A stretch of 64,000 nucleotides of DNA, taken from assembly GCF_006874425.1 (NCBI RefSeq), contig NZ_VIJZ01000001.1, forward strand, positions 310,001-374,000, given 5' to 3'. Shown in pieces: positions 14,653-29,096 of the stretch (the stretch's first letter is position 1; each line of letters begins with the position of its first letter). The notes under the pieces were generated by a model that was not told where the DNA came from, searched no databases, and saw only the letters and a program-made list of their open reading frames with translations. The position numbers and the translations under genes are program-made. The stretch comes from Paenibacillus ottowii (GTDB lineage Bacteria; Bacillota; Bacilli; Paenibacillales; Paenibacillaceae).

Positions 14653-15087
14653 ATGAGCTTGAATGAGAATATGACAGAAGAACAAATTTTGGACAGTCTG
14701 TTTGAAGCCGCTGAAAAACTTCCAGAAGAAACAGTTCGTATCAAGCGCCTCGATATGAAAATTGTGCTGCACGGTCTGACCTCCAGTAAGGTAGACAGCA
14801 TTCGTGAACGTTGCACGATTCGTCGAACCGTGAAGGGCGCCGTTGATGAAAAAGTAGATACCGAAACGTTCAACGCCTTGTTGATTTCGGAAGCTACCGG
14901 AAAGCTGGAAGTGAAGGGTCTATCCCTTAACGGTTGGGGCGATCCTCGGATTACAAGCCGCTTGAAGCTGTCCGGTGGCGAGCAGTCTGTCCGTCGTATG
15001 CTGCTGGCGGGTGAACTGGACGCAGTAGGGGATAAAGTGCTGGAACTGTCCGGTTTTGGCGTTGAGATTGCTGATCTAAAAAACTAA
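14653..15087 (+). CDS. Tail assembly chaperone, short form (XkdN-like)
   Basis: A 144-aa protein equal in position and look to PBSX XkdN and lambda gpG: acidic N-terminus (MTEEQILDSLFEAAEKLPEE), then KRLDMKIVLHGLTSSKVDSI and ISEATGKLEVKGLSLNGWGD. Such proteins coat the tape measure and recruit tube subunits. Its end overlaps a -1 slippery heptamer, A AAA AAC, set in the zero frame just before the TAA stop, so a fraction of ribosomes should make a longer form ending at 15239. GGGAG lies seven to eight bases before the ATG. Confidence 0.88.
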   Translation: MSLNENMTEEQILDSLFEAAEKLPEETVRIKRLDMKIVLHGLTSSKVDSIRERCTIRRTVKGAVDEKVDTETFNALLISEATGKLEVKGLSLNGWGDPRITSRLKLSGGEQSVRRMLLAGELDAVGDKVLELSGFGVEIADLKN

Positions 15088-15153
15088 TCAGCTCCGGGGG
15101 AATGACGACGATGCTGTACCATTTGTGGGTCCGGCACCACCTTCGTCCCGGAG
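15078..15153 (+). other. Programmed -1 ribosomal frameshift signal
   Basis: The heptamer A-AAA-AAC occupies 15078-15084 in the correct phase (zero frame CTA AAA AAC TAA). After a 7-base spacer, CTCCGGG (15092-15098) is perfectly complementary to CCCGGAG (15147-15153), giving a 7-bp stem that encloses a ~48-base loop able to hold more structure. Slippery site, spacer and stem all fit the lambda G/GT type of frameshift used by tail chaperones. Confidence 0.82.
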
Positions 15154-15239
15154 ACTTTTGGCGGCTTCCTCGCGGTGAGCGCATGCTGCTGCTGGCGTTT
15201 GCTGAAGAAGAACTAGATGCTCTAGCAGATAATACGTAG
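15102..15239 (+). CDS. -1 frame extension of the tail assembly chaperone
   Basis: In the -1 frame relative to the short chaperone, reading continues without stop from the slippery site through KLISSGG to a TAG at 15237. The part from ATG 15102 encodes about 45 residues: LYHLWVRHHLRPGDFWRLPR then GERMLLLAFAEEELDAL. The pattern P-G-D-F-W-x-L-P-x-x-E-R is typical of the T half of gpGT-like chaperones and of the small ORF before the tape measure in PBSX-type clusters. GGGGGA lies directly before 15102, too close for efficient independent initiation; ATG 15111 is possible. The fusion product would run 14653-15239 and be 195 residues. Confidence 0.78.
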   Translation: MTTMLYHLWVRHHLRPGDFWRLPRGERMLLLAFAEEELDALADNT

Positions 15240-15259
15240 TAGTAAAAGGAGGTGTAGGT

Positions 15260-17137
15260 GTGGATGATATTTTGGATATAAGAAGTTTAAGTAGAGTTAA
15301 TAAAGAATTAAAAGCTATGGATCGATACTTTGAGAGTATCCAGAAGAGGGCAAGAAATTTTGGGCTTAGTAGTTTCCAAAGACAAAAGATAGTTATTGAC
15401 CAAACTACGGAGTCAGTTAAGCGACTTTCTAATGCGTTGAGTAATTTAACTTCACGTTTATATAAAATAAATCGCCTGGCCCGAAATTTATCTGGAATTA
15501 AGATTGCTGTTAAATGTGCCTGTTCTAAGGATTGCTCGAAATGTAGATCAACATGTCACAGTAAGATGGGCAGTTCTAATGGGATCAACCATTCTTTGAC
15601 TAATTTACAAAAAAAGATCACGTCTCAACTTGGTTTACAAAACAAAGTAAACATTAACAAGTCCTCAGCTCCTGGCGTGCCCTTAAAAACTAGCACATCT
15701 AATTCTCCCAGCAAATCTGTAATTTCTCAGAGCTCTGCGACTAAAAATACTGAAAAAGAAAAGATAGTTGTAATAAAGCCTGTTATGAATACTATGGCTT
15801 TCATTAAGAAATTTAGTAAGGTGAATGATGCTGTAGAATCACTAAATAAAACTATTAAAGCCTACAAGGCCATTACTCCGTCACAAGTTGCTGCAATGCC
15901 TTCATGGTTACAAACTGCTAAAACTAAAATTGACGATGTAGTAAATCGAATTAAAACATCTACTATTTACACACGAGCAGCCTCTATGTACTCGGGTGCG
16001 CCATCTTGGGTAAAAACAGGTTTGAAGGGTGCAGGTAAAATAGCCAAAAGCGCCATTGTTGTTGCAGATGTTGTATATGATGCTTCTGAAATACTCAATG
16101 CTACTGGAGAAGAAAAGTATAAACTAATAGGTGAATTTGTTGGCTCAAAAATAGGTAATATAGTAGGTAAAAGTGTAGGTGGAGCTACCGTGGCTATTCC
16201 TTATGTGGGACCAGTTATCGCTCCTATTGCCTCATTAGTTCTTGGGGCGGCAGGAGAGTGGTTAGGTGGTATAGGTGGGGGCAAAATTATGGAAAAAGTC
16301 TGGTATGCTAAAACGCATCTTAAAGGCTGGACTAAATCCTTAAATGAAGGCATTGATACTACTACCAAAGATTTTAAACAAAGTATGAATGGTTTTAACA
16401 ATGAAGTGGCTAATAAAACGAATAATATAAAGACTACTGCTCCTGTAACAATTGATTCTTGGAGTAATAAAATTGTCAATTTCATTGGGAACAAAAGTGA
16501 AAGTGCTATCGGAATTGTTGAGAATATAACAGGGAAACTCTCAAAAGGAATACCTTTATCTAGTGATTTGACTAATAATATGAAGGGAGCACTTGAAAAC
16601 AAGATTAATGGTGTGAGTAATCGATTAAAAGGTTATGTTCCAGGGTTGGCAGAAGGGGTCAAGGAGAAAATCAACAATATTAGTGAAGGGACTAAAAATT
16701 TCTCTAATAAATTGAATAACTTTGTTCAGAAAAATGCTGACCCTTTTAAAGAAAAAGTTAAAAAAGCAACATCAAAAACAAGCGATTTCCTTCAAATGAT
16801 CTTGGATTCTCCAGAGAAATTGAACTGGGAGCTTATTCAGAGCACAGAGAAAACTGCTGCTAAAAAAAGTACTCCGAATAAATATTCTCGGACTTTAGTT
16901 GCAAGTTCTAGAACATATCGTGCAAATGATAGACACAGAACGGCAGCAGTCCATTCAGTAAAGAACACAAATAGAAATAAATCAAACATGCAAGTGAATA
17001 TGCCAACAGGAGCAATTCAGGTGGCTGTTGGTGAACGTGTTAATTTTGATGCTTTGGCTTCAGAAGTAGGCAAACGCTTCGTAGCAGGATTCCGTCAAGC
17101 TATGGATAACAACAAGACAGCTAGGGCCCTAGTGTGA
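15260..17137 (+). CDS. Tail tape measure protein
   Basis: A 625-aa protein placed between chaperone and LysM gene, where the tape measure (XkdO) lies in PBSX. It is Lys/Asn/Ser-rich, largely helical, with a hydrophobic central stretch (~residues 285-345; VGGATVAIPYVGPVIAPIAS) and a conserved-looking C-terminus (GERVNFDALASEVGKRFVAG). It is about half as long as PBSX XkdO, so if the usual ~0.15 nm per residue holds the tail would be near 90-100 nm. Unusual are a cysteine group, Cys86, 88, 92, 95, 99 with His100, and a base composition far more AT-rich than the genes on either side, suggesting recent acquisition. Start GTG 15260 has AAAAGGAGG eight bases upstream. Confidence 0.82.
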   Translation: MDDILDIRSLSRVNKELKAMDRYFESIQKRARNFGLSSFQRQKIVIDQTTESVKRLSNALSNLTSRLYKINRLARNLSGIKIAVKCACSKDCSKCRSTCHSKMGSSNGINHSLTNLQKKITSQLGLQNKVNINKSSAPGVPLKTSTSNSPSKSVISQSSATKNTEKEKIVVIKPVMNTMAFIKKFSKVNDAVESLNKTIKAYKAITPSQVAAMPSWLQTAKTKIDDVVNRIKTSTIYTRAASMYSGAPSWVKTGLKGAGKIAKSAIVVADVVYDASEILNATGEEKYKLIGEFVGSKIGNIVGKSVGGATVAIPYVGPVIAPIASLVLGAAGEWLGGIGGGKIMEKVWYAKTHLKGWTKSLNEGIDTTTKDFKQSMNGFNNEVANKTNNIKTTAPVTIDSWSNKIVNFIGNKSESAIGIVENITGKLSKGIPLSSDLTNNMKGALENKINGVSNRLKGYVPGLAEGVKEKINNISEGTKNFSNKLNNFVQKNADPFKEKVKKATSKTSDFLQMILDSPEKLNWELIQSTEKTAAKKSTPNKYSRTLVASSRTYRANDRHRTAAVHSVKNTNRNKSNMQVNMPTGAIQVAVGERVNFDALASEVGKRFVAGFRQAMDNNKTARALV

Positions 17138-17153
17138 GTAGGAGGTGAATAGT

Positions 17154-17795
17154 ATGGAGTTTAGTTTGACGGATGGTAAGGGGAAAAAGTTTCAGTTTCC
17201 AGTAAATCCTGAGGAAGTAACGATTTCACGACAAAAAGGATTTGATACAACAACGATTTTATCCTATGGGGAGTTTGACTTCCCACAAGGGGAGAAGGTG
17301 AAGGAAATCTCCTTCTCTTCTTTTTTTCCAAAAGAGTACAATCCAGCGTATTGCACATACGAAGACATCCCTGATCCGCAGGAGGCCATGAACACGTTGA
17401 ATGGCTTTTTGTTATCCAAGAGCCCGCTACGCTTTATCATTACAGAGACAGCCGTGAATGTACCTGTAATTGTGGCTTCTCATAATTCAACCTTTCGGGG
17501 CGGGGAATATGGGGATGTGAATTTTGATTTGTCACTGCGAACCTGGAGTGAAATGAAAGTGGCCAAAAAAGCCGGCAGTGGGGCGAAGTCTGCTACAGTC
17601 AACAAAAAGCCTCGCACGGATATGAAAGAAAAAAAGAAGACTTACACGGTTAAATCGGGAGATTCCTTGTCCAAAATTGCCAAGCTGGAGTTAGGGGACA
17701 GCTCGCAATGGAGTCGCATTTATCAGCTTAACAAAAAGGTCATTGGACAAAATCCAAATTCTATTAAACCGGGTCAAAAGCTGGTGTTATCATGA
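17154..17795 (+). CDS. xkdP: LysM-containing tail protein (XkdP-like)
   Basis: A 213-aa protein. The N-terminal ~145 residues (FSLTDGKGKKFQFPVNPEEV, SYGEFDFPQGEKVKEISFSS, FLLSKSPLRFIIT) match the XkdP/T4 gp53-like baseplate-hub cap; after a Lys-rich linker a single LysM repeat (YTVKSGDSLSKIAKLELGDS..WSRIYQLNK) ends the protein and should bind peptidoglycan. ATG 17154 lies nine bases after GGAGG; the upstream in-frame GTG at 17145 overlaps that site. It ends in ATGA overlap with the next gene. Confidence 0.92.
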   Translation: MEFSLTDGKGKKFQFPVNPEEVTISRQKGFDTTTILSYGEFDFPQGEKVKEISFSSFFPKEYNPAYCTYEDIPDPQEAMNTLNGFLLSKSPLRFIITETAVNVPVIVASHNSTFRGGEYGDVNFDLSLRTWSEMKVAKKAGSGAKSATVNKKPRTDMKEKKKTYTVKSGDSLSKIAKLELGDSSQWSRIYQLNKKVIGQNPNSIKPGQKLVLS

Positions 17796-18769
17796 GCTAC
17801 AAAGTCATTTTACAGGATAAATATGATTTATCACCTCTCGTAGAGAACATTAATTTGAGGGATTCGCTGGAGCAAATCGCTTATCAGGGCACGGTCAATT
17901 TGGTGGTTACGCCGGATATGCCGCCCATTTCTCCAGGGATGTCGATTCGGGTAAGTGGGATTCCTTATGGTAAAAAGGATTATGTCCCGTTGCTGTCTCC
18001 AGCCGTTATTTGGGAAGTAGAAACTTCGAACAATGGGCTCAAACGTATGACGCTGACGATATATGATCGCACCGTATATTTGGACAAGTCCGAGGATGAA
18101 TATTTGCTCCCTGCCAAGCAGACAGCTACCCAGCGTTTTCAGAAGTATGCGAGGGACTGGAAACTAAAAATCGCTTCATTGCCAGACACAAGAAAGCAGC
18201 TCGGGCGCGCTGTATACCGAACACAGTCCATTTACTCCATGATGCTGGGAGATCTGCGGGAAACGGCAAAAGCGGGAGGCAAGCTGTATCATCCACGGAT
18301 GGTTACTTCCGGTTTGGAGCTTTATGAACTGGGCACGAACAAAGATGTGTACATTTTGGAAAGAGTGACCGATACGACACAATCCCGTACGCTGGAAGGT
18401 GCGGCCACGAGAGTGAAGGTGCTGGCTACAACGGCAAGCGAGACGGGCAAAGAGGTTCCTTCCAAAGTGATGGCACTTGAAGAAAAGGACATTGCCAAAT
18501 ATGGAACCCTTCAGGTAATCGTGCAGGATGACGAGGTGAAGTCGGGTGCAGCGGCACGCGAGTTGGCCAAAAGTAAGCTGAGAGGCATACAACAAACGAT
18601 ATCGGTAAATGCGCCAGATATGAACACGATTCGAGCAGGAGACGCGGTAATGTTAGGGGCCATGAAGCTGCTGGTGATTTCAGTGAGCAGGGAATTGGGC
18701 AACCCGGGCAGTATGTCGCTGGAGCTCGGAACGTATGGCGATGTAAAAAGGAGGTTTTACCTTGAATAA
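17792..18769 (+). CDS. xkdQ: Tail hub protein (XkdQ-like)
   Basis: A 325-aa protein of the XkdQ/YqbQ type, similar in fold to gpD-like baseplate hubs (late control protein D). Motifs visible are YDLSPLVENINLRDSLEQIA, DMPPISPGMSIRVSG, LTIYDRTVYLDKSEDEYLLP and a C-terminal oligonucleotide-binding-like part with KVMALEEKDIAKYGTLQVIV and IRAGDAVMLGAMKLLV. It forms the central trimer at the tail tip. It overlaps the preceding gene by four bases and the next by eight. Confidence 0.92.
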   Translation: MSYKVILQDKYDLSPLVENINLRDSLEQIAYQGTVNLVVTPDMPPISPGMSIRVSGIPYGKKDYVPLLSPAVIWEVETSNNGLKRMTLTIYDRTVYLDKSEDEYLLPAKQTATQRFQKYARDWKLKIASLPDTRKQLGRAVYRTQSIYSMMLGDLRETAKAGGKLYHPRMVTSGLELYELGTNKDVYILERVTDTTQSRTLEGAATRVKVLATTASETGKEVPSKVMALEEKDIAKYGTLQVIVQDDEVKSGAAARELAKSKLRGIQQTISVNAPDMNTIRAGDAVMLGAMKLLVISVSRELGNPGSMSLELGTYGDVKRRFYLE

Positions 18770-19169
18770 GGACCCCTACGGGCATTTAGCCACTGCGCTG
18801 CAATCCTCATTTCATAAACATACCAAGCAAGCGCTGAGTGGAGTAGGTGCAGTATTAGGTACTATCACCTCCACAGGACTCAAGCTGGACGATTTTAAAC
18901 ATGAGCTCCAGGATTATCTGGTCGCCGAGCTGCCGGGGCTGCTATCTGTACCGCGCCATATGTACAAAGGCACCTCAACCTCGGTGGAATCAGAAAATTG
19001 GGAAGGCAAAGAGCTAAAAACTTCCTTTTATATCGGGGAAGATGAGCTGGAGGATGTAAATCTGAGCCTGAACAAAGGACTTAAGCCTGGGGATCGGGTA
19101 CTGGCGGTGCGGGTGAATAGCGGTAACGATGTGGTTGTCGTGTGCAAGGTGGTGAATGGACGTGGCTAA
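18762..19169 (+). CDS. Baseplate protein, DUF2577 (XkdR-like)
   Basis: A 135-aa protein starting with TTG at 18762, eight bases after AAAAGGAGG, overlapping the end of the hub gene. Features such as LATALQSSFHKHTKQALSGV, LDDFKHELQDYLVAELPGLL and LKPGDRVLAVRVNSGNDVVV correspond to DUF2577, the OB-fold-like component linked with the hub in PBSX-type baseplates. Its end overlaps the next gene by 14 bases. Confidence 0.85.
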   Translation: MNKDPYGHLATALQSSFHKHTKQALSGVGAVLGTITSTGLKLDDFKHELQDYLVAELPGLLSVPRHMYKGTSTSVESENWEGKELKTSFYIGEDELEDVNLSLNKGLKPGDRVLAVRVNSGNDVVVVCKVVNGRG

Positions 19170-19626
19170 TTTATTTCCCGAAACAGATGATATGATTTGG
19201 ACAGATGCAGATGTGACCGATCCAGATGTGCTGGAGGATAACCGTGCAGTATTTGGGCGAAGCTGGAGGTTTGATTTTGAAGCCGGGGAGTTTGTTATGA
19301 GCCCTAGTCGTAAAATCGTGACTACAGGCGAGAAAGAAGCCTGGGTACAGTGGTGTGAAAAAGCCATACGCACTCCTCGCTATCGGCATGTGATTTATTC
19401 GCCTGACTATGGAAGTGAGCTGGAGGAGCTGATTGGCAGCAGCTATGGGCACGGGGTGCAGGAAAGTGAAATTAAACGCATGGTCACAGAGGCGTTGCTA
19501 GCGGATGCACGTACGGCTAGTGTGGACCAGTTTACGTTTCGCTGGGAAGGTGAGGCATGCTATTTTAGCTGCCAGATTACGAACGTGCGAGATGAAACGG
19601 AAATTGTGGAAAGTGTGGTGATCTAA
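19156..19626 (+). CDS. xkdS: Baseplate wedge protein, DUF2634 (XkdS-like)
   Basis: A 156-aa protein with GRSWRFDFEAGEFVMSPSRK, EAWVQWCEKAIRTPRYRHVI and YSPDYGSELEELIGS, the pattern of the gpW/gp25-like DUF2634 family that builds the wedge around the hub. ATG at 19156 lies within the end of the preceding gene, with GGTGGTG upstream. It ends one base into the next gene's ATG (TAATG). Confidence 0.9.
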   Translation: MDVANLFPETDDMIWTDADVTDPDVLEDNRAVFGRSWRFDFEAGEFVMSPSRKIVTTGEKEAWVQWCEKAIRTPRYRHVIYSPDYGSELEELIGSSYGHGVQESEIKRMVTEALLADARTASVDQFTFRWEGEACYFSCQITNVRDETEIVESVVI

Positions 19627-20777
19627 TGGTAGACTTGCCGGAATATTTGGTAGACCAGACGGAAGAGGAAATCTTAAATCGAATGCTGGAAAAAGTGCCT
19701 TCGGACATTGATAAGTCCGAGGGCTCTTTTATTTGGGATGCGCAGGCGCCGGTGGCGTTTATGCTTTCTGAAGCCGCAATCTGGGCGCAGGAGCTGCTGC
19801 GTCGAGGCTTTGCCAGCACAGCAGCCAGCGATAACCCGGATTTTCGCTCGCCAGAGCTGGATTTGCGGACAGCAGAGCATGGAGTGACACGGCGGGAAGC
19901 CGTTGCGGCCTCAGGGAAGGTCAAGTTCACAGGCACAGCGGGAACAACTGTCCCAGCGGGAACGTTGGTGGCGACTCCGGCAGATGATGTGTCCGGAGAA
20001 GCCTCGATTGAGTATGCGACTACGGCCTCGGTCACGCTGGATGAGCAGGGCACAGGGGAAGCAATCATCCGGGCGGTCAATCCCGGACGCCGCGGCAATG
20101 TTCCAGCAGGCGTCATCCAGGTGATGGCTACTCCGATTAGCGGGGTGTCCTCCGTGATCAATACGGAGGAAACCAAAAGCGGCACAGACGTTGAGAGCGA
20201 CCAGCTGCTGCTGGAGCGTTTTTATGCCAAGGTGCGGAACCAGGGCACAAGCGGCAACAAGGCGCAGTATACCCAGTGGGCAAATGAGATTGCTGGCGTG
20301 GGTGGCGTGGAGGTTGTTCCGCTCTGGAAAGGTCCAGGAACAGTGGGGCTATATGTGCTGGATACGGATAAACGCGCTGCCAGCCCGGATATTGTGGCTG
20401 CGGTGCAAAAGTATATCGATCCAACTCAGGATGGGCAAGGCGAAGGGCTAGCACCAGCGGGCCCCGTGGTGACGGTCATGCCAGCGGCTGAAGTAGTAAT
20501 AAACATTTCGGTCAAGGTACAGCGCACCAAAGAGAAGCCGTCCACTCTGGATGAAATCAAAAAGCTGATTGAAAACGGTGTGCGGACGTATTTGAAGCAG
20601 CTTGCTTTTTACAAGGCAGATCCGTTGGTACGGTACACCCGGATTTCCGCTGTGCTGCTGGACATTCCAATTATTATTGATTTCTCTGAACTGAAAATTA
20701 ATGGACTGAGCAATCAGAATATTGAGATTGGATCAGGTCAGGTGGCCGTACTGGGGACGGTGAGCGTCAGTGAGTAA
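19626..20777 (+). CDS. xkdT: Baseplate J-like wedge protein (XkdT-like)
   Basis: A 383-aa baseplate J/Mu gp47-type protein: LVDQTEEEILNRMLEKVPSD, DKSEGSFIWDAQAPVAFML, then FTGTAGTTVPAGTLVATPAD, NPGRRGNVPAG and QGTSGNKAQYTQWANEIAGV. With the DUF2634 and DUF2313 proteins it forms the wedges that link sheath to fibres. Composition is GC-rich compared with the tape measure. It overlaps both neighbours. Confidence 0.94.
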   Translation: MVDLPEYLVDQTEEEILNRMLEKVPSDIDKSEGSFIWDAQAPVAFMLSEAAIWAQELLRRGFASTAASDNPDFRSPELDLRTAEHGVTRREAVAASGKVKFTGTAGTTVPAGTLVATPADDVSGEASIEYATTASVTLDEQGTGEAIIRAVNPGRRGNVPAGVIQVMATPISGVSSVINTEETKSGTDVESDQLLLERFYAKVRNQGTSGNKAQYTQWANEIAGVGGVEVVPLWKGPGTVGLYVLDTDKRAASPDIVAAVQKYIDPTQDGQGEGLAPAGPVVTVMPAAEVVINISVKVQRTKEKPSTLDEIKKLIENGVRTYLKQLAFYKADPLVRYTRISAVLLDIPIIIDFSELKINGLSNQNIEIGSGQVAVLGTVSVSE

Positions 20778-21444
20778 CAGCGGAATGAACAGTTTTGAAG
20801 AGCTTTTGAATAACCCAGACGAGGGAAAACGTACAAATCGTAGTGACACTTTTGTTAATCGAGTAACTCTAGCGGAAGATGCAATGGGTCAAATGAGCAG
20901 CGAGCGGGGACGCGAGCTGCTTTCCTATTTGCCCGCCTATTATGAAACCTCACGTGTGATGCGTTCTGATATGGATGCTAAAGGAAGCGAACTGGACGCT
21001 TTGTATCTGGCAATGGACGCAACGGTGGGACAGTTTTTCGTACGTACTGCCACCTGGGGGTTGGAACGCTGGGAAATGGAGCTGGGGATCGAAACCGACC
21101 TGGCGAAGCCATTGGATCAACGGCGTGCCGTGGTGGAATCGAAGCTGCGAGGGGCAGGAACTTTTTCCGGCCGGCTTGTCAAAAATGTAGCTGAAGCGTA
21201 TGACGGAGGCACGGTAGAGGTTACTTTTCATCCTGCCGAATGGGGATTTACGGTCAAATTTATAGATACCATCGGGATTCCTCCCAACGTGGAGGATCTG
21301 AAAGCAGCCATTGAGGAAATCAAGCCCGCTCACATGGCAGTGGAGTATAAATTACGTTACCTGACCATTGCCGAAGTGGAGTCTATGACCCTCTATGAAA
21401 ATGAACATACAACACAGGATAGATATTTAGGAGGTGGCGCATAA
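20770..21444 (+). CDS. Fibre-adaptor baseplate protein, DUF2313 (XkdU/YmfQ-like), copy 1
   Basis: A 224-aa tail protein I/DUF2313-type adaptor. The core reads RGRELLSYLPAYYETSRVMR, DMDAKGSELDALYLAMDATV, then QFFVRTATWGLERWEMELGI and KPLDQRRAVVESKLRGAGTF, followed by a compact C-terminal domain. About 40 residues precede the core. Start GTG at 20770 overlaps the preceding stop. A diverged second copy lies at 25101-25931. The first is followed at once by the large fibre gene, so it likely mounts that fibre on the baseplate. Confidence 0.9.
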   Translation: MSNSGMNSFEELLNNPDEGKRTNRSDTFVNRVTLAEDAMGQMSSERGRELLSYLPAYYETSRVMRSDMDAKGSELDALYLAMDATVGQFFVRTATWGLERWEMELGIETDLAKPLDQRRAVVESKLRGAGTFSGRLVKNVAEAYDGGTVEVTFHPAEWGFTVKFIDTIGIPPNVEDLKAAIEEIKPAHMAVEYKLRYLTIAEVESMTLYENEHTTQDRYLGGGA

Positions 21445-21445
21445 C

Positions 21446-23989
21446 ATGGCAAGCGAAAAAACACCGAATCTTGGTTTAAATCAAATTGACCGCACATCAC
21501 CCAAAACGACGTATTTTGATTTGGAAAAGTATCTGGATCAAAACTGGCGGTCTGTTGATGAATTTGCTGGTGGTGTAAATGATAGTGTAAATGAGATTAA
21601 GAAGCGCCTGGATACGACGGAACGCAAGGCGGTAACTTTGGAACCCGGTGTACAGATTGTTCGTGCGGAAAAGGCCGCGCCATTTTCGTTGACGGGACTA
21701 AGCGGACGTACGTTGGTGAATTTGTTGGGGCGGGTAGGCTCTTGTGACCGAATTGACAGCCTTTTAGGTTGGGAAGCTGATCTTGCAGTGGATACATCTA
21801 ATAAGGCGCAGGGTACGGGATCTATCAAGGTTACTGCAAAGAATGCCTCCGGTGTGTATAACGTGTATAGTACCGAATTAAAGCTTACTGGTGGAAGATA
21901 CTATGTCGCCCTGGCTGATGTTAAAAACATCAATGCCTCAAGTAATATCTATGTAAACTTTTCTACAGGTGGTAATAAGGCGCTCAAACAGTCCAAAGAT
22001 CAGAGTCGATTTGTAACGATCTATACAAAATGTGTACCGACAAACGATACTGAGGTGAACTTAGAAGTTACATCAATTTCAACAGCAACTGGCCAAGCTT
22101 TTTATGTAGACGCTATTCGTCTTTATGAGATTAACGCTTCAGATTATGCTGCCTTAGACAGCATGACCGCTGAACAGGTAGCTATCAAATATCCATATGT
22201 GGATAGCATAATGCCTGTTCGTAATCCGTATGCGATTCGGTACGGAGAAAACCTGGCCCCGCATTCTTTTTATTCTTGGGATACTAAGGTTGGAACGCCT
22301 ATTATTAAAGACGGTCAAAATGTTGTCGTTTCTTCTTCGAATATAATGATAGCATCCATCTCCCCGCTAGTTCCTGGGCAAATTTACACTGTTTCCGGTC
22401 AGTCGAGTGGGGCAACGGGCAGAATACATGTAAATTCACAAAATGAGACTGCAGTTATCGGTAATGTAACAGGTAGTGGACGTATCTCGTACACATTCAC
22501 AGTTCCTGCGGGCACTAATGGTATAGTAATCCGTTTGTTAGGGACATCCACGGAAGAAATAACGCTTTCGGATATTATGCTCAACATTGGCAACACAGTA
22601 AAACCATTCAAGCCGCGAGAAGACTCCATGCTTGCTCTGCAAACAGATTTGCACGCAGATCCGGTGTCAGGTGGTAATGCCGATAGAATTTTTGTGCAAG
22701 AGGGGCAGTGTTTTAAAAGTAAGATATGGAGAAATTTGGTGCTAGATGGGTCATTACCTTGGTCTTTTTTTTCATCAGCAACGGGATATAAAGTTGTTCG
22801 ACTACCTATCACTAACGGCAGGGTTGATAGTGAGAGAATAACTAAGTTTGATGGTAAGTTGATTCAACATGTTTTCCCACTGGGTGGGTCAGATCAATCG
22901 CACCTTAGTCCGGATTCTGGCGTTGTTGGTCTGTCCATCTCGAGCGCAGATAGCGGATGGGGAGACAACTATACGCCAACAACGGATGAAATTAAAGTGT
23001 ATTTTATGGGTTGGAAAATGTATGATGCTGGAACGTATACTCCAGAGGCGGCACAGGCAGCAACTATCGCCACATATAACGGCACAGGCACAAAATACTG
23101 GGTACATCGCGTTGGTACAGCTACCTATTCCAAGCCGTTACCTAGCAGCTCTTATGAAGAATACACGCCTTACCAACTTGTGTATCAGCTTGAGGCACCT
23201 ACTGTTGAACCTATCGTTAGCGAGGGACAGTTATCGTTTAACGAGGGGGATAATCAAGTTGAAGTAGGTACGGGGATTGTTCTGCGTGAAAGCTCTGGTG
23301 TTAACACGATTGCTGGTTTTTACGCCTATATAAATGCCGAACACCCTCTAAAGTACAAGCCGTGGAATATCCTTGGTGTGTACAGAAATGGGAAAAAGGA
23401 TTCTCGGTGGGAGGTTGTTATTAGACCAGCGACAGACCCTGCTATTTCAATAGGAAGAGCATTTGCGAGGTTAGCTGTAGGATTGTATGATCCAGCGGAT
23501 AGCTTTTCAACAACTTACGTTATGTCGGACCTATCACCAATTATACAGTTCATAGGCTCCTACGCAGCCAATGAAAAGACGCTGTTGACAGACTTGGTAA
23601 AAAGTGTACAGCAGGCTAACGCTCGTGTGTCTGTGGTTGAGAACAAGAAGGCTGACAAGGACAAACCTGAATGGATTACGCCTACGTTGCTTAATGGTTG
23701 GGTCAATTATGATACAGTTCGTAGACCACTGAGCTATTACAGAGATTCACAGGGGTGGGTTCACGTTCAAGGGTATATAAAGGGTGGTGTGGGTACTTTC
23801 GGTTCAGTCATTTTCAGCTTCCCAGAGGGGTATAAGCCCGAAAGTCCGATAGAGGTAAATGGAATTAGCAACAATGGCACTAACTCTACGCCTTGCACTC
23901 TTTACGTGGGGGTTAATAGCCTACAATGTGATACGGATGTTAAAAATTCCGCCTTGGTAGTTAACTTCTCATACCGCGTAAAACAATAA
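21446..23989 (+). CDS. Large tail fibre / receptor-binding protein
   Basis: An 847-aa protein. The N-terminus (PNLGLNQIDRTSPKTTYFDL then EKYLDQNWRSVDEFAGG) matches the attachment end of XkdV-type fibres, followed by a short coiled coil. Two jelly-roll-like beta domains (~residues 100-235 and 260-390) look like carbohydrate-binding modules. A coiled coil near residues 715-745 (LTDLVKSVQQANARVSVVEN) leads to a C-terminal tip domain of ~100 residues (GWVNYDTVRRPLSYYRDSQG) that probably binds the target-cell surface. ATG 21446 lies eleven bases after AGGAGG. Binding target unknown. Confidence 0.85.
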   Translation: MASEKTPNLGLNQIDRTSPKTTYFDLEKYLDQNWRSVDEFAGGVNDSVNEIKKRLDTTERKAVTLEPGVQIVRAEKAAPFSLTGLSGRTLVNLLGRVGSCDRIDSLLGWEADLAVDTSNKAQGTGSIKVTAKNASGVYNVYSTELKLTGGRYYVALADVKNINASSNIYVNFSTGGNKALKQSKDQSRFVTIYTKCVPTNDTEVNLEVTSISTATGQAFYVDAIRLYEINASDYAALDSMTAEQVAIKYPYVDSIMPVRNPYAIRYGENLAPHSFYSWDTKVGTPIIKDGQNVVVSSSNIMIASISPLVPGQIYTVSGQSSGATGRIHVNSQNETAVIGNVTGSGRISYTFTVPAGTNGIVIRLLGTSTEEITLSDIMLNIGNTVKPFKPREDSMLALQTDLHADPVSGGNADRIFVQEGQCFKSKIWRNLVLDGSLPWSFFSSATGYKVVRLPITNGRVDSERITKFDGKLIQHVFPLGGSDQSHLSPDSGVVGLSISSADSGWGDNYTPTTDEIKVYFMGWKMYDAGTYTPEAAQAATIATYNGTGTKYWVHRVGTATYSKPLPSSSYEEYTPYQLVYQLEAPTVEPIVSEGQLSFNEGDNQVEVGTGIVLRESSGVNTIAGFYAYINAEHPLKYKPWNILGVYRNGKKDSRWEVVIRPATDPAISIGRAFARLAVGLYDPADSFSTTYVMSDLSPIIQFIGSYAANEKTLLTDLVKSVQQANARVSVVENKKADKDKPEWITPTLLNGWVNYDTVRRPLSYYRDSQGWVHVQGYIKGGVGTFGSVIFSFPEGYKPESPIEVNGISNNGTNSTPCTLYVGVNSLQCDTDVKNSALVVNFSYRVKQ

Positions 23990-24001
23990 GGAGGTCACGC
24001 C

Positions 24002-24607
24002 ATGAAAGCAGCACCTAAAGTAAATACAAACGGCCTCTATCTTGAGGACGAGCTGGTGGACGATACCTTTTCAGGTATCGTCCCTTTTTATACTCCATTT
24101 TCACCTACGCTATCTGATACAAACCAGCAACTAGCCACCCATCGGCTTGCTGACAGTAGCTCTAGTACCACAGATGGAACAAGTTCAGAAAGCATCCCTG
24201 CTGGTTATACAGTAGGGATTCCAGTGCCATCTGGTCTATACCATCCTCGTTTTGACATCCAAGGTTGGCTGACCTATGAAGCGGAATATAATCAAAAGCT
24301 GATGGAAGCACAAAAAGCCTTTGATCAGTTGAACAACGAATCCCAAGTTTTATTTCAGAAGCAGCATGATGAATGGCGAAGCAAGCCGGAAAACGAACGT
24401 GGAGACGAGCCTGTATATTCTGCTCAGACATTCACGGCTCCAGAACGAAGAGAGCCGACGACATTCTGGAATGAAGGGTTGAGTGAGGAAGCAATTAAGG
24501 AACTGGCACAAAAAGCAGGGCAACAGCCAAGCGAGACAGATCAACTGAAGCAGCGGATTGCAGATCTCGAAGTGACGTTGACCCAGCTCATGCTTGGTAA
24601 CACATGA
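24002..24607 (+). CDS. Tail-fibre accessory protein (XkdW-position)
   Basis: A 201-aa protein of mixed character: an N-terminal region (NTNGLYLEDELVDDTFSGIV) followed by a Ser/Thr-rich stretch, a SGLYHPRFDIQGWLTYEAEY block, a helical Gln-rich part and a C-terminal coiled coil LKQRIADLEVTLTQLMLGN. That final pattern is typical of proteins encoded immediately after fibres in PBSX-like clusters (XkdW). It may be a fibre-assembly helper or a minor fibre part. AAGGAGG lies eight bases before the ATG. Confidence 0.6.
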   Translation: MKAAPKVNTNGLYLEDELVDDTFSGIVPFYTPFSPTLSDTNQQLATHRLADSSSSTTDGTSSESIPAGYTVGIPVPSGLYHPRFDIQGWLTYEAEYNQKLMEAQKAFDQLNNESQVLFQKQHDEWRSKPENERGDEPVYSAQTFTAPERREPTTFWNEGLSEEAIKELAQKAGQQPSETDQLKQRIADLEVTLTQLMLGNT

Positions 24608-24671
24608 AAATAACGTGTACTGACGATGATATGTAACAACAATCTTTATAAAAAGAGGTGAAGTCATAACC

Positions 24672-24938
24672 ATGGCAGCTTTAACAGAGGCTCAAATACG
24701 TATTTGTGCTCATGCTTGCATCACCCGCTATGATCGGGGAGAAGGCCATGTAGCAGCTATTATTGGAAACTATGCTTTAAATGAAGAACAACGTAAACAA
24801 GTGTTTGGAATGATTTTATCCAATCGCTCTGATCTGGTGTTGGATAACATAGAGGATTCGCCATCTATGGAGGTTTCGAGTGCACAGCGAGAAACGGTTA
24901 AATGGTATAGCTCAATTTTCCGTAAGAAGACAGTATAA
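24672..24938 (+). CDS. Small tail-operon protein, 88 aa, hypothetical
   Basis: The ATG at 24672 follows AGAGGTG by about ten bases. The product is helical (LTEAQIRICAHACITRYDRG, LNEEQRKQVFGMILSNRSDL) with a basic C-terminus, no membrane segment. I do not recognise the family. Position between two fibre sets suggests a fibre-related accessory role, but this is only context. Confidence 0.6.
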   Translation: MAALTEAQIRICAHACITRYDRGEGHVAAIIGNYALNEEQRKQVFGMILSNRSDLVLDNIEDSPSMEVSSAQRETVKWYSSIFRKKTV

Positions 24939-24979
24939 GTACAGAGCAAAAAATGCCTGTACTCAAAGGAGGAGTGAGC

Positions 24980-25111
24980 ATGTATGAAAGAGTGTTTTTA
25001 GTTTTGATGAGTTTCTCCAGGCTGAAAATGAAAAGACAAAGCAAACCTTTTATAAACATTCAGCCCGATCAGGTGGTAGAGCTGGGGATGGTGAGTATGG
25101 ATGGGTATTGA
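24980..25111 (+). CDS. Small protein, 43 aa, hypothetical
   Basis: ATG 24980 has AAAGGAGGAGTG directly upstream, one of the strongest ribosome-binding sites in the cluster. The 43 codons encode a hydrophobic N-terminus (MYERVFLVLMSFSRLKM) and a polar tail (FINIQPDQVVELGMVSMDGY). Its end overlaps the start of adaptor copy 2 by 11 bases, so it probably supports coupled translation of that gene. No family recognised. Confidence 0.5.
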   Translation: MYERVFLVLMSFSRLKMKRQSKPFINIQPDQVVELGMVSMDGY

Positions 25112-25931
25112 TGAAAAAAAGGAATCTGTTATCCAAGATATAACCGGAGAATTCAAAAATCGAATGTTCAGTTCGCGGGGACAAGAGCTATTCTCCTATC
25201 TGCCAGCCTATTATGAAACCTCTCGTGTAATGCATGTCGATATGGATGTAAAGGGTAGCGAACTAGATGTTCTATATCTTGCTTTGGATGATACATTAGC
25301 CCAATTTTTTGTTCGCACCGCCACTTGGGCGCTGGAAAGCTGGGAGATGGAGTTAGGTATCCCGATCAATTTGGGAAAGCCGTTGGAACAGCGACGTTCT
25401 GTCGTGGAGTCGAAACTCCGTGGGAGTGGTAAATTTTCAGGCAATTTAATACGGAAAATCATGAACTCTTTTGGTGTGGAAGGGGAAGTAGACTTTCATC
25501 CGACGGAATATAAGTTTGGTATAAGCTTTGAAAACCATATCCCCGAAAATATGATTGATTTCAAAAAGATTATCGAGGATATTAAACCTGCTCATCTTGC
25601 TTTTTATATGAATAATAAAACTAGGCTTGCATTTCTTCATGAGAATCTAATGGTTTCTCGTATTCGATTACGTTCGCGAGTTCGCTTTTTTGGTGGGAAG
25701 CCATGGTATCTAGATGGTGTCGAGTTACTGAACGGAATAGCCTCTTTGTCTGGGTGGACAGAGGAACCTATGCGTTATGTGAACCGTATGAAATTAGTCA
25801 CCAAATATCAAGTGATTCATCATCAGGAAGGCAACGTGAAAATTCGAAACCATTATTGGAAGTTAGATGGAAGTAGGAAGCTGGATGGAAGTCAGATGTT
25901 AAGCTCAACGGAGAAAGTCATTTCAATTTAA
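25101..25931 (+). CDS. Fibre-adaptor baseplate protein, DUF2313, copy 2 with C-terminal extension
   Basis: A 276-aa paralogue of the protein at 20770. The baseplate-facing core is well kept (RGQELFSYLPAYYETSRVMH, DMDVKGSELDVLYLALDDTL, QFFVRTATWALESWEMELGI, KPLEQRRSVVESKLRGSGKF) while the C-terminal domain differs, and about 75 extra residues follow (FGGKPWYLDGVELLNG, YWKLDGSRKLDGSQML). DNA identity between copies is clearly below that of a recent duplication. It should compete with or complement copy 1 at the baseplate and carry the second fibre set that follows. ATG 25101 lies within the end of the 43-aa gene. Confidence 0.88.
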   Translation: MGIDEKKESVIQDITGEFKNRMFSSRGQELFSYLPAYYETSRVMHVDMDVKGSELDVLYLALDDTLAQFFVRTATWALESWEMELGIPINLGKPLEQRRSVVESKLRGSGKFSGNLIRKIMNSFGVEGEVDFHPTEYKFGISFENHIPENMIDFKKIIEDIKPAHLAFYMNNKTRLAFLHENLMVSRIRLRSRVRFFGGKPWYLDGVELLNGIASLSGWTEEPMRYVNRMKLVTKYQVIHHQEGNVKIRNHYWKLDGSRKLDGSQMLSSTEKVISI

Positions 25932-25972
25932 ACAAACTAGCTTTTACTTTTAAAATAGAAAGGATGATAAGT

Positions 25973-26362
25973 GTGGCAGAACAAGTTCTGACAGTTACAA
26001 CTGCTTACGCAAGGGAACAAATGGCACGTGCCCGCGCTGAGGGAGGAACGCTGACAAAAGTGATAAAGATGGCGTTTGGTAGCGGAGGCGTAGATCAAGC
26101 GGGGAAACCACTGCCTTTGGACGGAGCAGAACAGGCCTTGAAAAAGGAATTGATCCAAAAGGAAATTACTAGTTTTGAATTCATTGCGCCTGCGACGATC
26201 CGTTATATTTGTTCACTAGCAGAAAATGAACTGGCGGGTGAGACGATTAATGAGCTTGCGCTGGTAGACTCGACGGGTAAGCTGACAGCTGTTCGTACAA
26301 TGACTAATAAAGTGAAAGATAGTGATATGGAATTTGTATTCGAAATTGATGACATTTATTAA
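25973..26362 (+). CDS. Tail-collar-type fibre protein
   Basis: A 129-aa protein (GTG start at 25973, nine bases after AAAGG; an ATG at 25964 abuts that site). It reads LTVTTAYAREQMARARAEGG, KMAFGSGGVDQAGKPLPLDG and ELAGETINELALVDSTGKL, the look of the phage tail-collar fibre domain (DUF3751-like) that joins adaptor and distal fibre. It ends 15 bases before the next fibre gene. Confidence 0.72.
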   Translation: MAEQVLTVTTAYAREQMARARAEGGTLTKVIKMAFGSGGVDQAGKPLPLDGAEQALKKELIQKEITSFEFIAPATIRYICSLAENELAGETINELALVDSTGKLTAVRTMTNKVKDSDMEFVFEIDDIY

Positions 26363-26377
26363 GGAGGATGAAGAAGT

Positions 26378-27397
26378 ATGAGTATACAACAACCACGCAG
26401 ATTTGTTACTACTGATCAGGGACATGCGGACGTTCTGAATGTCCCCATTGATACTCTTTACGCAAACGATCAGGAATTGGCCGCACAGGTTGAAAATATT
26501 AAAAAGGATCCGGCTGGAAACGGGGTTGCTTCTAAGGAAGCGTTAGACAGCCATGCCAGTAATACAGATCTCCACGTTACGGCAGCCAAACAAGCGGCAT
26601 GGAGTGCAGCTGAGGGAAATGCCAAAAAGTATACAGAGCAATATGCAGCACCAAAGCAGCATAGTCACCCGGCATCAGATTTGCCTTCTGCATCCACACA
26701 GGCGAGAGGGATTGTGCAGCTTAATACCTCTACCGGCAGCACAGCTACAGATCAGGCAGCTACTCCCAGTGCGGTAAAGGCGGCTAATGATAGAGCGAAT
26801 GAAGCTTACAACCGGGCTGAACAGGCTTTTCAATCTGGCAATGACTACAAGCAACGCTTGGTAGCCGAAATCATTGCCAATGGAGGATCGGCTACAATGT
26901 CAGAGGACTTTAATAGTCTCATCTCGAAAATAGCACAATCTGCACAAATGAAATATAAGGTTCAAACGATTCAGCGCGGGACGGCTAACGGCGACCTATT
27001 CACGATGCCTGCTGGGTTTAACAGCCTGGCTTCCGGTTCACTCCTGTCATATGGTCCCGGAGTCAGTTCGGCTTTTTATATGTCTATGAGTCAGGACGCT
27101 ACTGTTTTATTCTACATGCTGGATGGTTCCGGTAGACGATTTGACTTTCCGGTACACCGTGAGCCTTGGAAAAGCGGTTCTACCTACTACTGTACCGGAT
27201 TCAAAATCGACAAGGCAGTAGGAACAGCTAGTGTTATTTTTTATACAGGATCGGCACAGCAGGGGACGGGTGGCCCGACGATATCAATCAACATCCCAGG
27301 AGACTTTAACCTAAAAGGTGGGGTCAAATTGCGCTGTGATATTACGGGCAGCATCACTTGGTACTATCAAGGTTATCTTACAGCTATCGGGTGGTAG
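26378..27397 (+). CDS. Second tail fibre protein
   Basis: A 339-aa protein. The N-terminal third carries a helical stretch with DSHASNTDLHVTAAKQAAWS and a phage tail-fibre repeat, STQARGIVQLNTSTGSTATD..ATPSAVKAAND; a coiled coil follows. The C-terminal ~140 residues (from MKYKVQTIQRGTANGDLF to WYYQGYLTAIGW) are a beta-rich tip unlike that of the first fibre. GGAGGATG lies before the ATG. It is the last structural gene; a terminator follows at 27428. Confidence 0.85.
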   Translation: MSIQQPRRFVTTDQGHADVLNVPIDTLYANDQELAAQVENIKKDPAGNGVASKEALDSHASNTDLHVTAAKQAAWSAAEGNAKKYTEQYAAPKQHSHPASDLPSASTQARGIVQLNTSTGSTATDQAATPSAVKAANDRANEAYNRAEQAFQSGNDYKQRLVAEIIANGGSATMSEDFNSLISKIAQSAQMKYKVQTIQRGTANGDLFTMPAGFNSLASGSLLSYGPGVSSAFYMSMSQDATVLFYMLDGSGRRFDFPVHREPWKSGSTYYCTGFKIDKAVGTASVIFYTGSAQQGTGGPTISINIPGDFNLKGGVKLRCDITGSITWYYQGYLTAIGW

Positions 27398-27427
27398 GTG
27401 GTTGTTATGAGTAAAAGATTAACCAGC

Positions 27428-27453
27428 GTATCCAAACCGGATACTCTTTTTTT
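27428..27453 (+). terminator. Intrinsic terminator between fibre and lysis genes
   Basis: GTATCC-aaacc-GGATAC followed by TCTTTTTTT. A second stem, GCCCCC-aaccgtggtc-GGGGGC at 27456-27477, follows without a T run. Together they should separate or dampen transcription into the holin/lysozyme pair. Confidence 0.85.
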
Positions 27454-27527
27454 CTGCCCCCAACCGTGGTCGGGGGCTTATATTACGTCGGGAAATTTTT
27501 CCTGACCAACAGATCGGGGGAACAAAC

Positions 27528-27974
27528 ATGCATGAAAAGATCGATCAGATTTGGCTGGGGTTTTCCACGGGGACCTTGATCGGTTATTTTTTCGGGGGGT
27601 GGACCACAATGTTGACGTTGCTGTGGTGGATGGTCGTGATCGACTTTTTCACCGGATGGGCAGCGGCCTGGATTAATGGAGAGCTGAAAAGCCGCCAAGG
27701 GTATTACGGTATTTTTCGCAAGGTTACCGTGTTTCTACTCATTACGGTAGCTCATCTGATCGACGGTATTCTCGGGGATGCACATTACTTCCGGGATGCC
27801 GTCGTTTTCTTTTATTTAGCGAACGAGCTGTTGTCCATTATAGAAAATGTGGGCAGAATGGGAGTGCCGATGCCGGATATTTTGCGGAATGCGGTAGCCA
27901 TTTTTGAGTCCAAATCGAGTGGGGAAAAAATAAAGCCACCCGACCCTTCCGACAAAGAAAATAAAGCTTCATAA
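27528..27974 (+). CDS. Holin, TcdE/phage holin 4 family
   Basis: A 148-aa membrane protein with three or four hydrophobic segments (IGYFFGGWTTMLTLLWWMVV, FFTGWAAAWI, VTVFLLITVAHLIDG, VVFFYLANELLSIIENVGRM). The D-F-F-T-G and Y-L-A-N-E-x-L-S-I-I-E-N-x-G motifs, then GVPMPDILRNAV, are those of the holin family that includes C. difficile TcdE. It should open the membrane so the endolysin can reach the wall and tail particles be released. GGGGGA lies seven bases before the ATG. Confidence 0.92.
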   Translation: MHEKIDQIWLGFSTGTLIGYFFGGWTTMLTLLWWMVVIDFFTGWAAAWINGELKSRQGYYGIFRKVTVFLLITVAHLIDGILGDAHYFRDAVVFFYLANELLSIIENVGRMGVPMPDILRNAVAIFESKSSGEKIKPPDPSDKENKAS

Positions 27975-28127
27975 AGTGCTGACCGTCGCCCTTGCAAAAA
28001 AAAGGAAGATGGTCTTTTCGCCTTTTTTCGGCATAAAAGTGGAAAAGCCCATACCGGCTCCTTGGTCCAAGCATATATAACAGAGACAGAGTGCTACAAC
28101 ATTATGAATGACAGGGGGGAGCGCCTT

Positions 28128-29096
28128 ATGCAAAGTCGCAGCCCTAACGCGGCCGAAGGCATTGACGTGTCCCGATATCAGGGAACGATTGATTGGAAAC
28201 GTGTGCGAGCCGATGGCAAATCATTTGCATTTATTAAAGCAAGTCAAGGACAGCGTTACATTGATCCGACATTTATCACGAATGCAAAAGGGATCAGGGC
28301 AGCCGGAATTTTACTTGGAGCTTACCATTTTGTAGATGCGACCACTGTAAACGCAGCCAAAGCGGAAGCCAGGCATTTCGCCGAGGTGCTGGATCAGGTA
28401 GGGGGTGCGAAAGCGCTAGACTTGCCAGCGGTCATGGATTATGAAAACAATCCGGGAGGGCTTAGCTCAGCCGCAATTCATGAGATTGCACTGGCATTTT
28501 TGACGGAATTTGAGCGAGTCAGCGGTTGCAAGCCGATGGTATATACGGGCAATGCTTTTGCTGCCCATTTCAAAGCCCCGTTGGGTAGTTATAAGCTATG
28601 GATTGCGCGTTACAGTAGTACACGAGTGCCTAGTGATACCACACCATGGAAGAATTGGGATTTCTGGCAATACAGTGATAGTGGACGGGTTGAAGGCATC
28701 CAAGGGCCAGTTGATCTGAATGTATATGCTGGAACAGAGGCTGAGTTACGCCAAGCATTTGCAAGAGAAGAGGGGGAAGAACCCATGACAGCGGAGGAAA
28801 AAGCAGTATTTAAGGCCCTGCAGCAGCAGGTGGCCGCCCTTGAAAACAGCAGAGATGTGCTCAAGCAAACATTAAATGAACAGAGCGCTTATATTAAAAA
28901 GGTGGATCAGCGAGTAGCTGAACTGGAGGCGCGTCAGGCTATGCCTGTACCAGCCTGGGCCAAGGAAGCGATGGCTGCTGCTGTTGCAGTTAATCCGGCA
29001 AGCCCGATTGTGGATACGAAACTGCCAAGCAGTTATGATTTTTATCGTTTGCTGGTCGTGTTGAACCGTCTAGGTGTGTTTAAAATCACCAAGTAA
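28128..29096 (+). CDS. GH25 lysozyme endolysin
   Basis: A 322-aa muramidase. Residues ~10-205 are glycoside hydrolase family 25: EGIDVSRYQGTIDW, FAFIKASQGQRYIDP, GAYHFVDA and the catalytic PAVMDYENN (Asp104, Glu106), then YTGNAFAAHF and DFWQYSDSG. A coiled coil follows (~residues 225-285) and a C-terminal motif SSYDFYRLLVVLNRLGVFK that may target the wall. No signal peptide, so export depends on the holin. I chose ATG 28128, seven bases after AGGGGGGAG; the frame is open to 28062. In the 153-base gap after the holin only a weak GACC/GGTC hairpin is visible. Confidence 0.93.
   Translation: MQSRSPNAAEGIDVSRYQGTIDWKRVRADGKSFAFIKASQGQRYIDPTFITNAKGIRAAGILLGAYHFVDATTVNAAKAEARHFAEVLDQVGGAKALDLPAVMDYENNPGGLSSAAIHEIALAFLTEFERVSGCKPMVYTGNAFAAHFKAPLGSYKLWIARYSSTRVPSDTTPWKNWDFWQYSDSGRVEGIQGPVDLNVYAGTEAELRQAFAREEGEEPMTAEEKAVFKALQQQVAALENSRDVLKQTLNEQSAYIKKVDQRVAELEARQAMPVPAWAKEAMAAAVAVNPASPIVDTKLPSSYDFYRLLVVLNRLGVFKITK

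Follow-up and report, generated by a model that had tools for sequence, protein, structure and literature searches.

The window analysed here is a stretch of 64,000 nucleotides from Paenibacillus ottowii (GCF_006874425.1, contig NZ_VIJZ01000001.1, positions 310,001 to 374,000). It contains an island that its gene content marks as a tailocin-type locus, a contractile tail with no head, as found in the Paenibacillus polymyxa/terrae group. Behind the one xkdT gene of this locus, which encodes the baseplate wedge protein XkdT, lie two genes for fibre adaptors, each followed by a different fibre. The initial annotation had placed two DUF2313 adaptors at 20770 and 25101. Open reading frames (ORFs) were confirmed at both positions, and their products score 117.3 and 102.7 bits with PF10076 (Phage_Mu_Gp48), far above the cut-off of 37.4. 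The two cassettes and their XkdT are made up as follows (lengths in amino acids, aa).

19626..20777, plus strand: XkdT, baseplate J protein and wedge partner of the adaptors (phrog_6; PF04865)
20770..21444, plus strand: adaptor 1, XkdU-like, of the DUF2313 / Mu gp48 / diffocin Tri1 family, 224 aa
20890-21339, plus strand: core of adaptor 1
21334-21441, plus strand: type-A fibre-facing tail of adaptor 1
21434..23989, plus strand: fibre 1, 851 aa, with a conserved N-terminus and a variable distal part (phrog_13022, E 6.5e-200)
24002..24607, plus strand: helper of fibre 1 (phrog_22769)
24672..24938, plus strand: 88-aa ORF that travels with cassette 1, being present in cassette-1-only loci and absent from both cassette-2-only loci
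24952..27515, plus strand: strain-variable cassette 2, between the 88-aa ORF and the holin gene
24953..25111, plus strand: 52-aa ORF whose end is like the last ~33 residues of XkdT, read as a decayed XkdT 3' end
25101..25931, plus strand: adaptor 2, 276 aa
25161-25601, plus strand: core of adaptor 2
25596-25928, plus strand: long type-D fibre-facing tail of adaptor 2
25964..26362, plus strand: collar protein of fibre 2 (PF12571; 73% identical to PBP180 ORF29)
26378..27397, plus strand: fibre 2, 339 aa, with the first 150 residues conserved and the remainder variable (PF03406)

Residues 41-190 of adaptor 1 aligned with residues 21-167 of adaptor 2 at 63% identity (94/150, E 2e-66), so the shared adaptor core is not a chance similarity. 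Outside this core of ~150 residues, no other meaningful alignment between the two proteins was found. The earlier description of a common baseplate-facing core joined to unlike C-terminal tails and fibres is thus borne out, as is that of ~75 extra residues in the second copy, since the translations contain 36 residues past the conserved PAH motif in adaptor 1 and 111 in adaptor 2. The tail of adaptor 2 carries LDG repeats and resembles the ends of PBP180 ORF28 and phiCD27 orf23, and the collar protein encoded behind it is 46% identical to phiCD27 orf24. With the phage homologues compared, adaptor 2 shares 28-29% identity along most of its length, against 63% between its core and adaptor 1. Because the core goes with adaptor 1 while tail and collar resemble PBP180 and phiCD27, adaptor 2 is a hybrid of the tailocin's own kind of core and a fibre-facing part from another phage lineage. 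Recent gene conversion of the whole adaptor was considered and rejected: the counterparts in polymyxa-type loci are closer to each adaptor (82-95% for adaptor 1, 74-87% for adaptor 2) than the other copy is (63%), and the longest exact DNA match between the two genes is 17 nt, although local mosaics do exist.

Fibre 1 lies after adaptor 1, as annotated initially. The length of 847 aa given to it then differs from the 851 of the ORF list, and the shorter form would correspond to another start codon. We infer a role in assembly for its helper. The collar protein of fibre 2 gave three weak matches only against PDB sequences, under the entry name Rab family protein. Gp10-like domains were not named among the Pfam and PHROG matches of either fibre, which are matches to sequence profiles and not to fibre folds.

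A profile search of the window's own genome retrieved one sheath gene and two PF10076 matches, both in the island. There is accordingly one tailocin baseplate in the genome, in line with the single baseplate first proposed. A Phage_Mu_Gp48 gene stands directly after baseplate J, as the start of adaptor 1 overlaps the end of XkdT; adaptor 2 follows the XkdT-end-like remnant. The rule of one adaptor per baseplate set is broken in the window and in seven of 80 Paenibacillus stretches. Baseplate_J matches number three, one in the island and two elsewhere, and these two further genes might suggest that adaptor 2 belongs to a different tail whose genes lie elsewhere in the genome. We regard this as extremely improbable: there is no second sheath gene, adaptor 2 sits inside this operon with a core nearer to adaptor 1 than to the phage homologues, and one of the other regions, L295, comes with an adaptor-position ORF, a fibre and a helper of its own. 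Apart from the island, the genome has two regions that look like prophages (L295, G000:C11:694000-712500, and L296, 732500-751000), each with a Baseplate_J gene and the helper-gene hairpin described below. The adaptor-position ORF of L295 encodes 213 aa unlike either adaptor, and its fibre is of 862 aa.

The distribution of the cassettes was followed in relatives of the window. PF10076 was searched in 75 Paenibacillus genomes, one per species, of which 70 had a match, and 80 stretches around PF10076 matches were compared by similarity to the window, some weaker matches being left out. Homologous loci were defined by an XkdT at least 94% identical to that of the window, which gave 15 loci, one per species and the window included; the P. 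terrae sequence is identical to G059/L042 and was left out of the counts. Two adaptors behind one XkdT were detected in eight of the 15 (the window, L034, L035, L038, L040, L041, L042 and L050), L034 with a different second cassette. Six loci have cassette 1 only (L036, L037, L039, L043, L045 and L047), and one, L052, has cassette 2 only, with a fibre 96% identical to fibre 2 of the window. Scans of IMG/VR, the second of which covered the best 80 of 82 matches, added 34 distinct contigs of this type: 12 with both cassettes, one with an L034-type second cassette, three with cassette 1 followed by the holin gene, one with cassette 2 only (L128) and 17 that end at or before the 88-aa ORF and are unscorable. 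The similarity of nine cassette-1-only relatives to the window stops at 24925-24954, and its restart at 27516 was seen in two of them (L043 and L045). Since some relatives have both sets and others just one, be it the first or the second, the two fibre sets look interchangeable, and these strains form natural controls.

On a tree of XkdT with 32 rows from scored loci, the presence of cassette 2 requires nine changes. The two-cassette state alone requires 10 (8 of them forced by starred branches), against 10.4 in shuffles, and the row nearest to the window, L133 (98%), is without cassette 2. Cassette 2 therefore appears to turn over quickly, unless the XkdT tree is blurred by recombination. Among 97 genomes of other genera of the family (61 with a match), no two adaptors at most 6 kb apart on one contig were found by eye at E <= 1e-12. 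Pairs of adaptors ~11 kb apart in other Paenibacillus were rejected as instances of the same arrangement. They belong to tandem tails with an XkdT for each adaptor; such a tandem of two contractile-tail gene sets, complete with one XkdT and one adaptor apiece, occurs in 28 of the 80 stretches (L054-L071, L077, L078, L086, L089, L091, L092, L095, L098, L103 and L104, with broken frames in L070 and L098). In L053 (G074), one adaptor precedes two successive fibre and helper pairs (fibres of 880 and 877 aa) with a hairpin in each helper, a layout that is another route to two fibres.

Recombination within the adaptor core has left several traces. The adaptors of the two cassette-2-only loci, L052 and L128, are chimeric, with an adaptor 1-like start that switches to adaptor 2 within the shared core. 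Direct repeats of 283 nt at 72% identity flank a possible loop-out of cassette 1, and a loop-out between them would yield this chimera; the alternative would be an older common state. The second adaptor of L034 is also a mosaic, adaptor-2-like up to approximately alignment column 140 and adaptor-1-like beyond. A remnant of the last ~33 residues of XkdT was detected upstream of adaptor 2, where a real XkdT would end, in 14 of 21 two-cassette loci, with E-values of 9e-9 to 2e-3 that were obtained within a small set without a shuffle control and with the near-copies L042/L160 and L034/L155 counted. It is absent from the other seven, four of which contain a similar out-of-frame string. This remnant suggests that cassette 2 probably arrived together with the end of an xkdT gene. 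Cassette 2 is thus read as a strain-variable module whose gain, loss and remodelling proceed through recombination within the core of the adaptor.

Ratios of non-synonymous to synonymous substitution (dN/dS) were calculated by the simple NG86 method as pairwise medians over pairs with dS 0.05-1.5 only, near-copies included. The medians were 0.046 for XkdT, 0.065 for the collar protein, 0.112 for adaptor 1 and 0.143 for adaptor 2; both adaptors are under purifying selection. Higher medians were obtained for fibre 1 (0.263, 296 usable pairs) and fibre 2 (0.286, 137 pairs, including two L034-type second fibres). Compared with the window, fibre 1 homologues are 86-99% identical over the first 90 residues and 12-79%, mostly below 60%, further on; fibre 2 homologues are 72-89% identical over 150 residues and 15-26% further on. 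These figures, with conserved N-termini and variable distal parts, give the two fibres the look of receptor-binding fibres that are in use. It is highly improbable that cassette 2 (or 1) is a non-functional relict of past recombination. The patchy distribution and the decayed XkdT end would fit a relict, but adaptor 2 is open at 263-297 aa in 21 of 21 loci compared and has a low dN/dS, the collar gene is among the most constrained, and cassette 2 alone serves L052 and L128. With both cassettes intact, under purifying selection and each found alone in other strains or species, the concern raised at the outset that one might be degenerate in relatives falls away.

Profile searches with the adaptor core retrieved three homologues of solved structure, phiCD508 gp66 (E 2e-33), diffocin Tri1 (CD1372; 8e-28) and Mu gp48 (0.003), each with six chains per entry. 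A fold search with the model of adaptor 1 also ranked phiCD508 and diffocin first, but superposition was poor (TM-score 0.27, root-mean-square deviation 13.9), so the assignment of homologues rests on sequence profiles. The Mu baseplate has six wedges, each built from a single gp48 with two copies of gp47, and a docking loop of gp48, residues 133-155, anchors the fibre, according to the accessible portion of PMC11915804. For diffocin, the portion of PMC10996793 available describes an unresolved C-terminus of Tri1 that joins the fibre, and a contraction signal that runs via Tri1. By analogy, the adaptor would be the third wedge protein, its N-terminal core seated in the wedge with two copies of XkdT and its C-terminal part holding the fibre. 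Both adaptor cores would fit the same XkdT and differ in their sockets, the short type-A tail receiving the 851-aa fibre with its helper and the long type-D tail the collar-based 339-aa fibre. Since the cores are nearly equivalent and solved relatives have one adaptor per wedge, six sites should be shared between the two paralogues or contested by them. With all six positions of a baseplate open to both, particles with one set, the other set or a mixture could form, and two fibre sets could permit wider or two-step target recognition.

The reading that we favour is therefore a headless contractile tail with two alternative adaptor-fibre cassettes for one baseplate, and we consider it likely, if not firmly so. 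The genetic part of the two-cassettes-on-one-tail proposal of the initial annotation stands, upheld by the shared core, the single sheath gene and cassettes that occur intact or alone elsewhere; expression of both sets, shared occupancy of six sites, mixed particles and dual specificity are what we infer from it. The chances that single particles would be mixed and bear both fibre sets seem to us evenly balanced. If so, one weapon could recognise two kinds of target. Alternatively, both cassettes may be made but assembled in an all-or-none manner, giving two homogeneous populations in which each particle has fibre 1 or fibre 2 only. Homogeneous particles must be possible, because each cassette suffices alone in relatives. 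However, the cores are 63% identical and no sequence feature distinguishes the wedges, and we consider two separate populations unlikely.

A relationship between adaptor tail and fibre was sought by assigning types to the part of the adaptor beyond the PAH motif and to the beginning of the large ORF that follows, in loci from the genus and from IMG/VR. L003 and IMG/VR copies of contigs already present were left out before pairing, and then 12 of 209 records were skipped for truncated adaptors, no PAH motif or no fibre. Of 190 distinct pairs, 186 combined a tail with a fibre N-terminus of the corresponding type (A/a 75, B/b 46, C/c 41, D/d 18, E/e 6); none was contradictory. The four unclassified pairs are L098, whose fibre ORF is of no known type, L138 and L144, with D tails missed by the rule, and L115; the scripted total was 187, including one unknown/unknown pair, and 186 is the clean count. 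When fibre types were shuffled within core lineages (50% cut), a mean of 71 and a maximum of 89 matches were obtained in 2000 shuffles. Split at 60% identity, core lineages number two for tail types A, B and E, three for C and one for D. A comparison free of typing rules, which covered 109 adaptors with 899 pairs of unlike cores, broadly agrees. Tail similarity was at least 0.5 in 15 pairs, with fibre-start similarity of 0.51-0.63; 0.35-0.5 in four, with fibre starts at 0.19-0.22; and below 0.35 in 880, with fibre starts at 0.04-0.31.

With this agreement and no contrary case, the adaptor can be likened to a connector, its core resembling a plug for the baseplate and its tail a socket specific to the fibre. 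From approximately residue 54-60 on, the fibre of L295 shares 44% identity with fibre 1 across 808 residues, and it has a different N-terminus. A body like that of fibre 1, with another N-terminus and an unrelated adaptor-position ORF, is what the docking idea would predict. The pairing offers a testable docking rule for the contact left unresolved in the diffocin structure, as far as that is set out in the available portion of PMC10996793. As a more far-reaching and doubtful proposal, the tail may specify which fibre family can dock and move with its fibre between unlike cores, and an attenuator within a gene between the cassettes may set the ratio of the two fibres. If true, a six-fold machine becomes a statistically mixed two-receptor particle through duplication of an adaptor.

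The candidate attenuator is the following element.

24058..24092, plus strand: hairpin resembling a terminator, located within the helper gene after fibre 1 and ahead of cassette 2 (11-pair stem, then CTTTTTA)

It begins 56 nt into the helper gene. Its role could be that of an attenuator behind the fibre gene or of an anchor for recombination; as an attenuator, it could act on everything downstream, cassette 2 and the lysis genes included. The hairpin was also found at G000:C11:701222 and C11:739198 in the same genome and in 84 IMG/VR stretches, and its position early in the gene is fixed, while identity over the remainder of the helper is as low as ~31% (median of 81 ORFs). In 55 distinct helper genes found by protein, the ten outer pairs make up 550 cells, eight of which are non-standard; the helpers of L092 and L202 are without the strict protein motif, and that of L202 looks unlike the others. 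Relative to synonymous versions, z was -5.3 for the helper hairpin, -4.3 for a stretch of adaptor 1 and -3.8 for one of XkdT, so that certain parts of other genes are conspicuous too, if to a lesser degree.

The two fibre sets might thus be used unequally, with the stem at 24058-24083 limiting cassette 2 to a minority or conditional fibre. The hairpin folds in 45 of 45 polymyxa-type helpers, three of them weakly (-11.6 to -13.9 kcal/mol) and with the T run outside the stretch read in one; in 17 of 20 distinct stretches, the share of synonymous versions with an equally good fold is below 1%; and one stem pair, pair 8, varies as G-C, A-U, U-A and G-U. Yet the hairpin also occurs in cassette-1-only strains, and hence did not evolve for cassette 2, and it lies within a translated gene whose neighbouring codons are conserved about equally. 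Since the codons beside the stem are also unusually conserved, the conservation may largely be that of a DNA block rather than of an RNA. Scans of the region gave 12 terminators against 7.8 expected (standard deviation, sd, 3.2) and 21 promoters against 16.0 (sd 4.5), near chance overall. We consider regulated use of cassette 2 quite unlikely. A second terminator-like hairpin lies at 19697-19724 on the plus strand, ~70 nt into xkdT, with 10 pairs followed by TCTTTTATTT; it occupies the same place in several relatives and may be a by-product of a conserved protein motif.

Several points weigh against two adaptor-fibre cassettes serving one baseplate in the manner proposed. The tail that co-varies with the fibre follows the PAH motif, whereas the Mu docking loop comprises residues 133-155 of 180 aa, so the two sites need not correspond. 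The models from AlphaFold are weak, with a predicted local distance difference test (pLDDT) score of 57 for adaptor 2 (below 50 in the tail) and 68 for adaptor 1. Type D occurs on one core lineage only in this set. The type rules are post hoc and were widened once, the initial rules having left 29 C and 2 D pairs untyped, and the match between tail and fibre partly reflects shared descent. Clustering of the 109 adaptors without rules merges A and C tails, which face two fibre clusters (43 and 7). The cassette-2-only state is known from just one species locus and one contig, and the upstream hairpin might keep cassette 2 low.

Other features of the island complete the picture of a tailocin.

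8371..29096, mixed strands: whole island of regulators and tail-lysis operon (Pfam/PHROG matches)
8371-9281, minus strand, and 9548-10048, plus strand: regulators (Pfam/PHROG matches)
12558..14024, plus strand: tail sheath (PF04984), the sole such match in the genome
14120..14554, plus strand: tail tube (PF09393)
27528..27974, plus strand: holin (PF05105)
28062..29096, plus strand: GH25 lysin (PF01183)

The minus strand of the island encodes an M78 peptidase and a phage-type repressor, and an activator-like gene precedes the tail operon. The operon runs sheath, tube, XkdN, tape measure, XkdP, Q, R, S and T, adaptor 1, fibre 1 and helper, continuing with small ORFs, adaptor 2, collar, fibre 2, holin and GH25 lysin. 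Host-type genes border the island: QueD, QueC and a 5'-nucleotidase to its left, and to its right an oligopeptide ABC transporter. Scans of the larger ORFs between 175 and 33478 with Pfam and/or PHROGs revealed no genes for capsid, portal or terminase; the few matches with a 'head and packaging' label are weak hits of the adaptor and fibres. The locus therefore has the sheath, tube and contractile-type baseplate genes of a contractile tailocin, its own lysis genes and regulators, and no head genes among the ORFs scanned. A streptomycin adenylyltransferase-type gene (PF04439; 10156-11010, plus strand) lies between the activator-like gene and the tail operon, and a 322-aa protein of unassigned function (phrog_2146; 11358-12326, plus strand) is encoded immediately upstream of the sheath gene.

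PBSX has the gene order xkdK to xkdU followed by a fibre gene, with a single XkdU-XkdV pair, and makes phage-like particles with heads. The same order is given for PBSX-like elements of Bacillus and Brevibacillus, for which the XkdG capsid is named; for the Brevibacillus regions xkdT and xkdU are described and a second adaptor is not mentioned in the accessible portion of that source (PMC9406221). Mu gp48, diffocin Tri1 and phiCD508 gp66 have a homologous core, occur once per wedge and six times per baseplate and turn their C-terminal part to the fibre (available portions of PMC11915804 and PMC10996793). Those particles have one adaptor gene, whereas the window has two paralogues with different tails and fibres in one baseplate gene set. 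The Bacillus pumilus phage PBP180 and the C. difficile phage phiCD27 have an adaptor tail and collar like those of cassette 2, but by annotation one such cassette each in the stretches examined, and adaptor 2 has the tailocin's own core instead.

Duplicated adaptors with separate fibre cassettes were not found described in the literature on tailocins, PBSX or Paenibacillus as judged from titles and the starts of abstracts, subscription papers being mostly outside that scope. Tailocin clusters with several fibre genes, for which a wider target range is proposed, are known in Pseudomonas and others, and duplicated adaptors with separate docking tails are not described for them in the accessible portions of PMC10598620 and PMC13195805, which cite earlier work. 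Multi-fibre tailocins are thus already known, and the duplicated adaptor with its own fibre cassettes would be the new element. Tandem tailocins likewise provide more than one target specificity per locus, as in P. protegens CHA0 with two R-tailocins, each with its own tape measure (PMC7815802, in part), but there each adaptor has its own baseplate set, whereas one XkdT would serve two adaptors here. Sf14 carries two long-fibre types, hence two receptor-binding sets, on one phage tail (PMC11821841, in part). Ackermannviridae, also with two receptor-binding sets on a tail, branch at gp10-like spike domains and not through duplication of a gp48-type adaptor, according to the available portion of PMC11414711. 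In invertible fibre switches (the Mu G segment and carotovoricin), fibre ends of opposite orientation lie between long inverted repeats, and the window does not fit this scheme. Inversion or phase variation of the fibres was rejected: both cassettes are on the plus strand, inverted repeats in 19000-29200 are of 18-25 nt at 72-83% with no long ones, and no invertase is among the Pfam/PHROG matches of the cassette genes. Branched spikes, tandem tails and fibre inversion are the usual topics when a second receptor specificity is considered; here, duplication of an adaptor would provide it without rebuilding the baseplate, and the headless phage-tail weapon of a soil bacterium could gain wider target recognition if both fibre sets are used.

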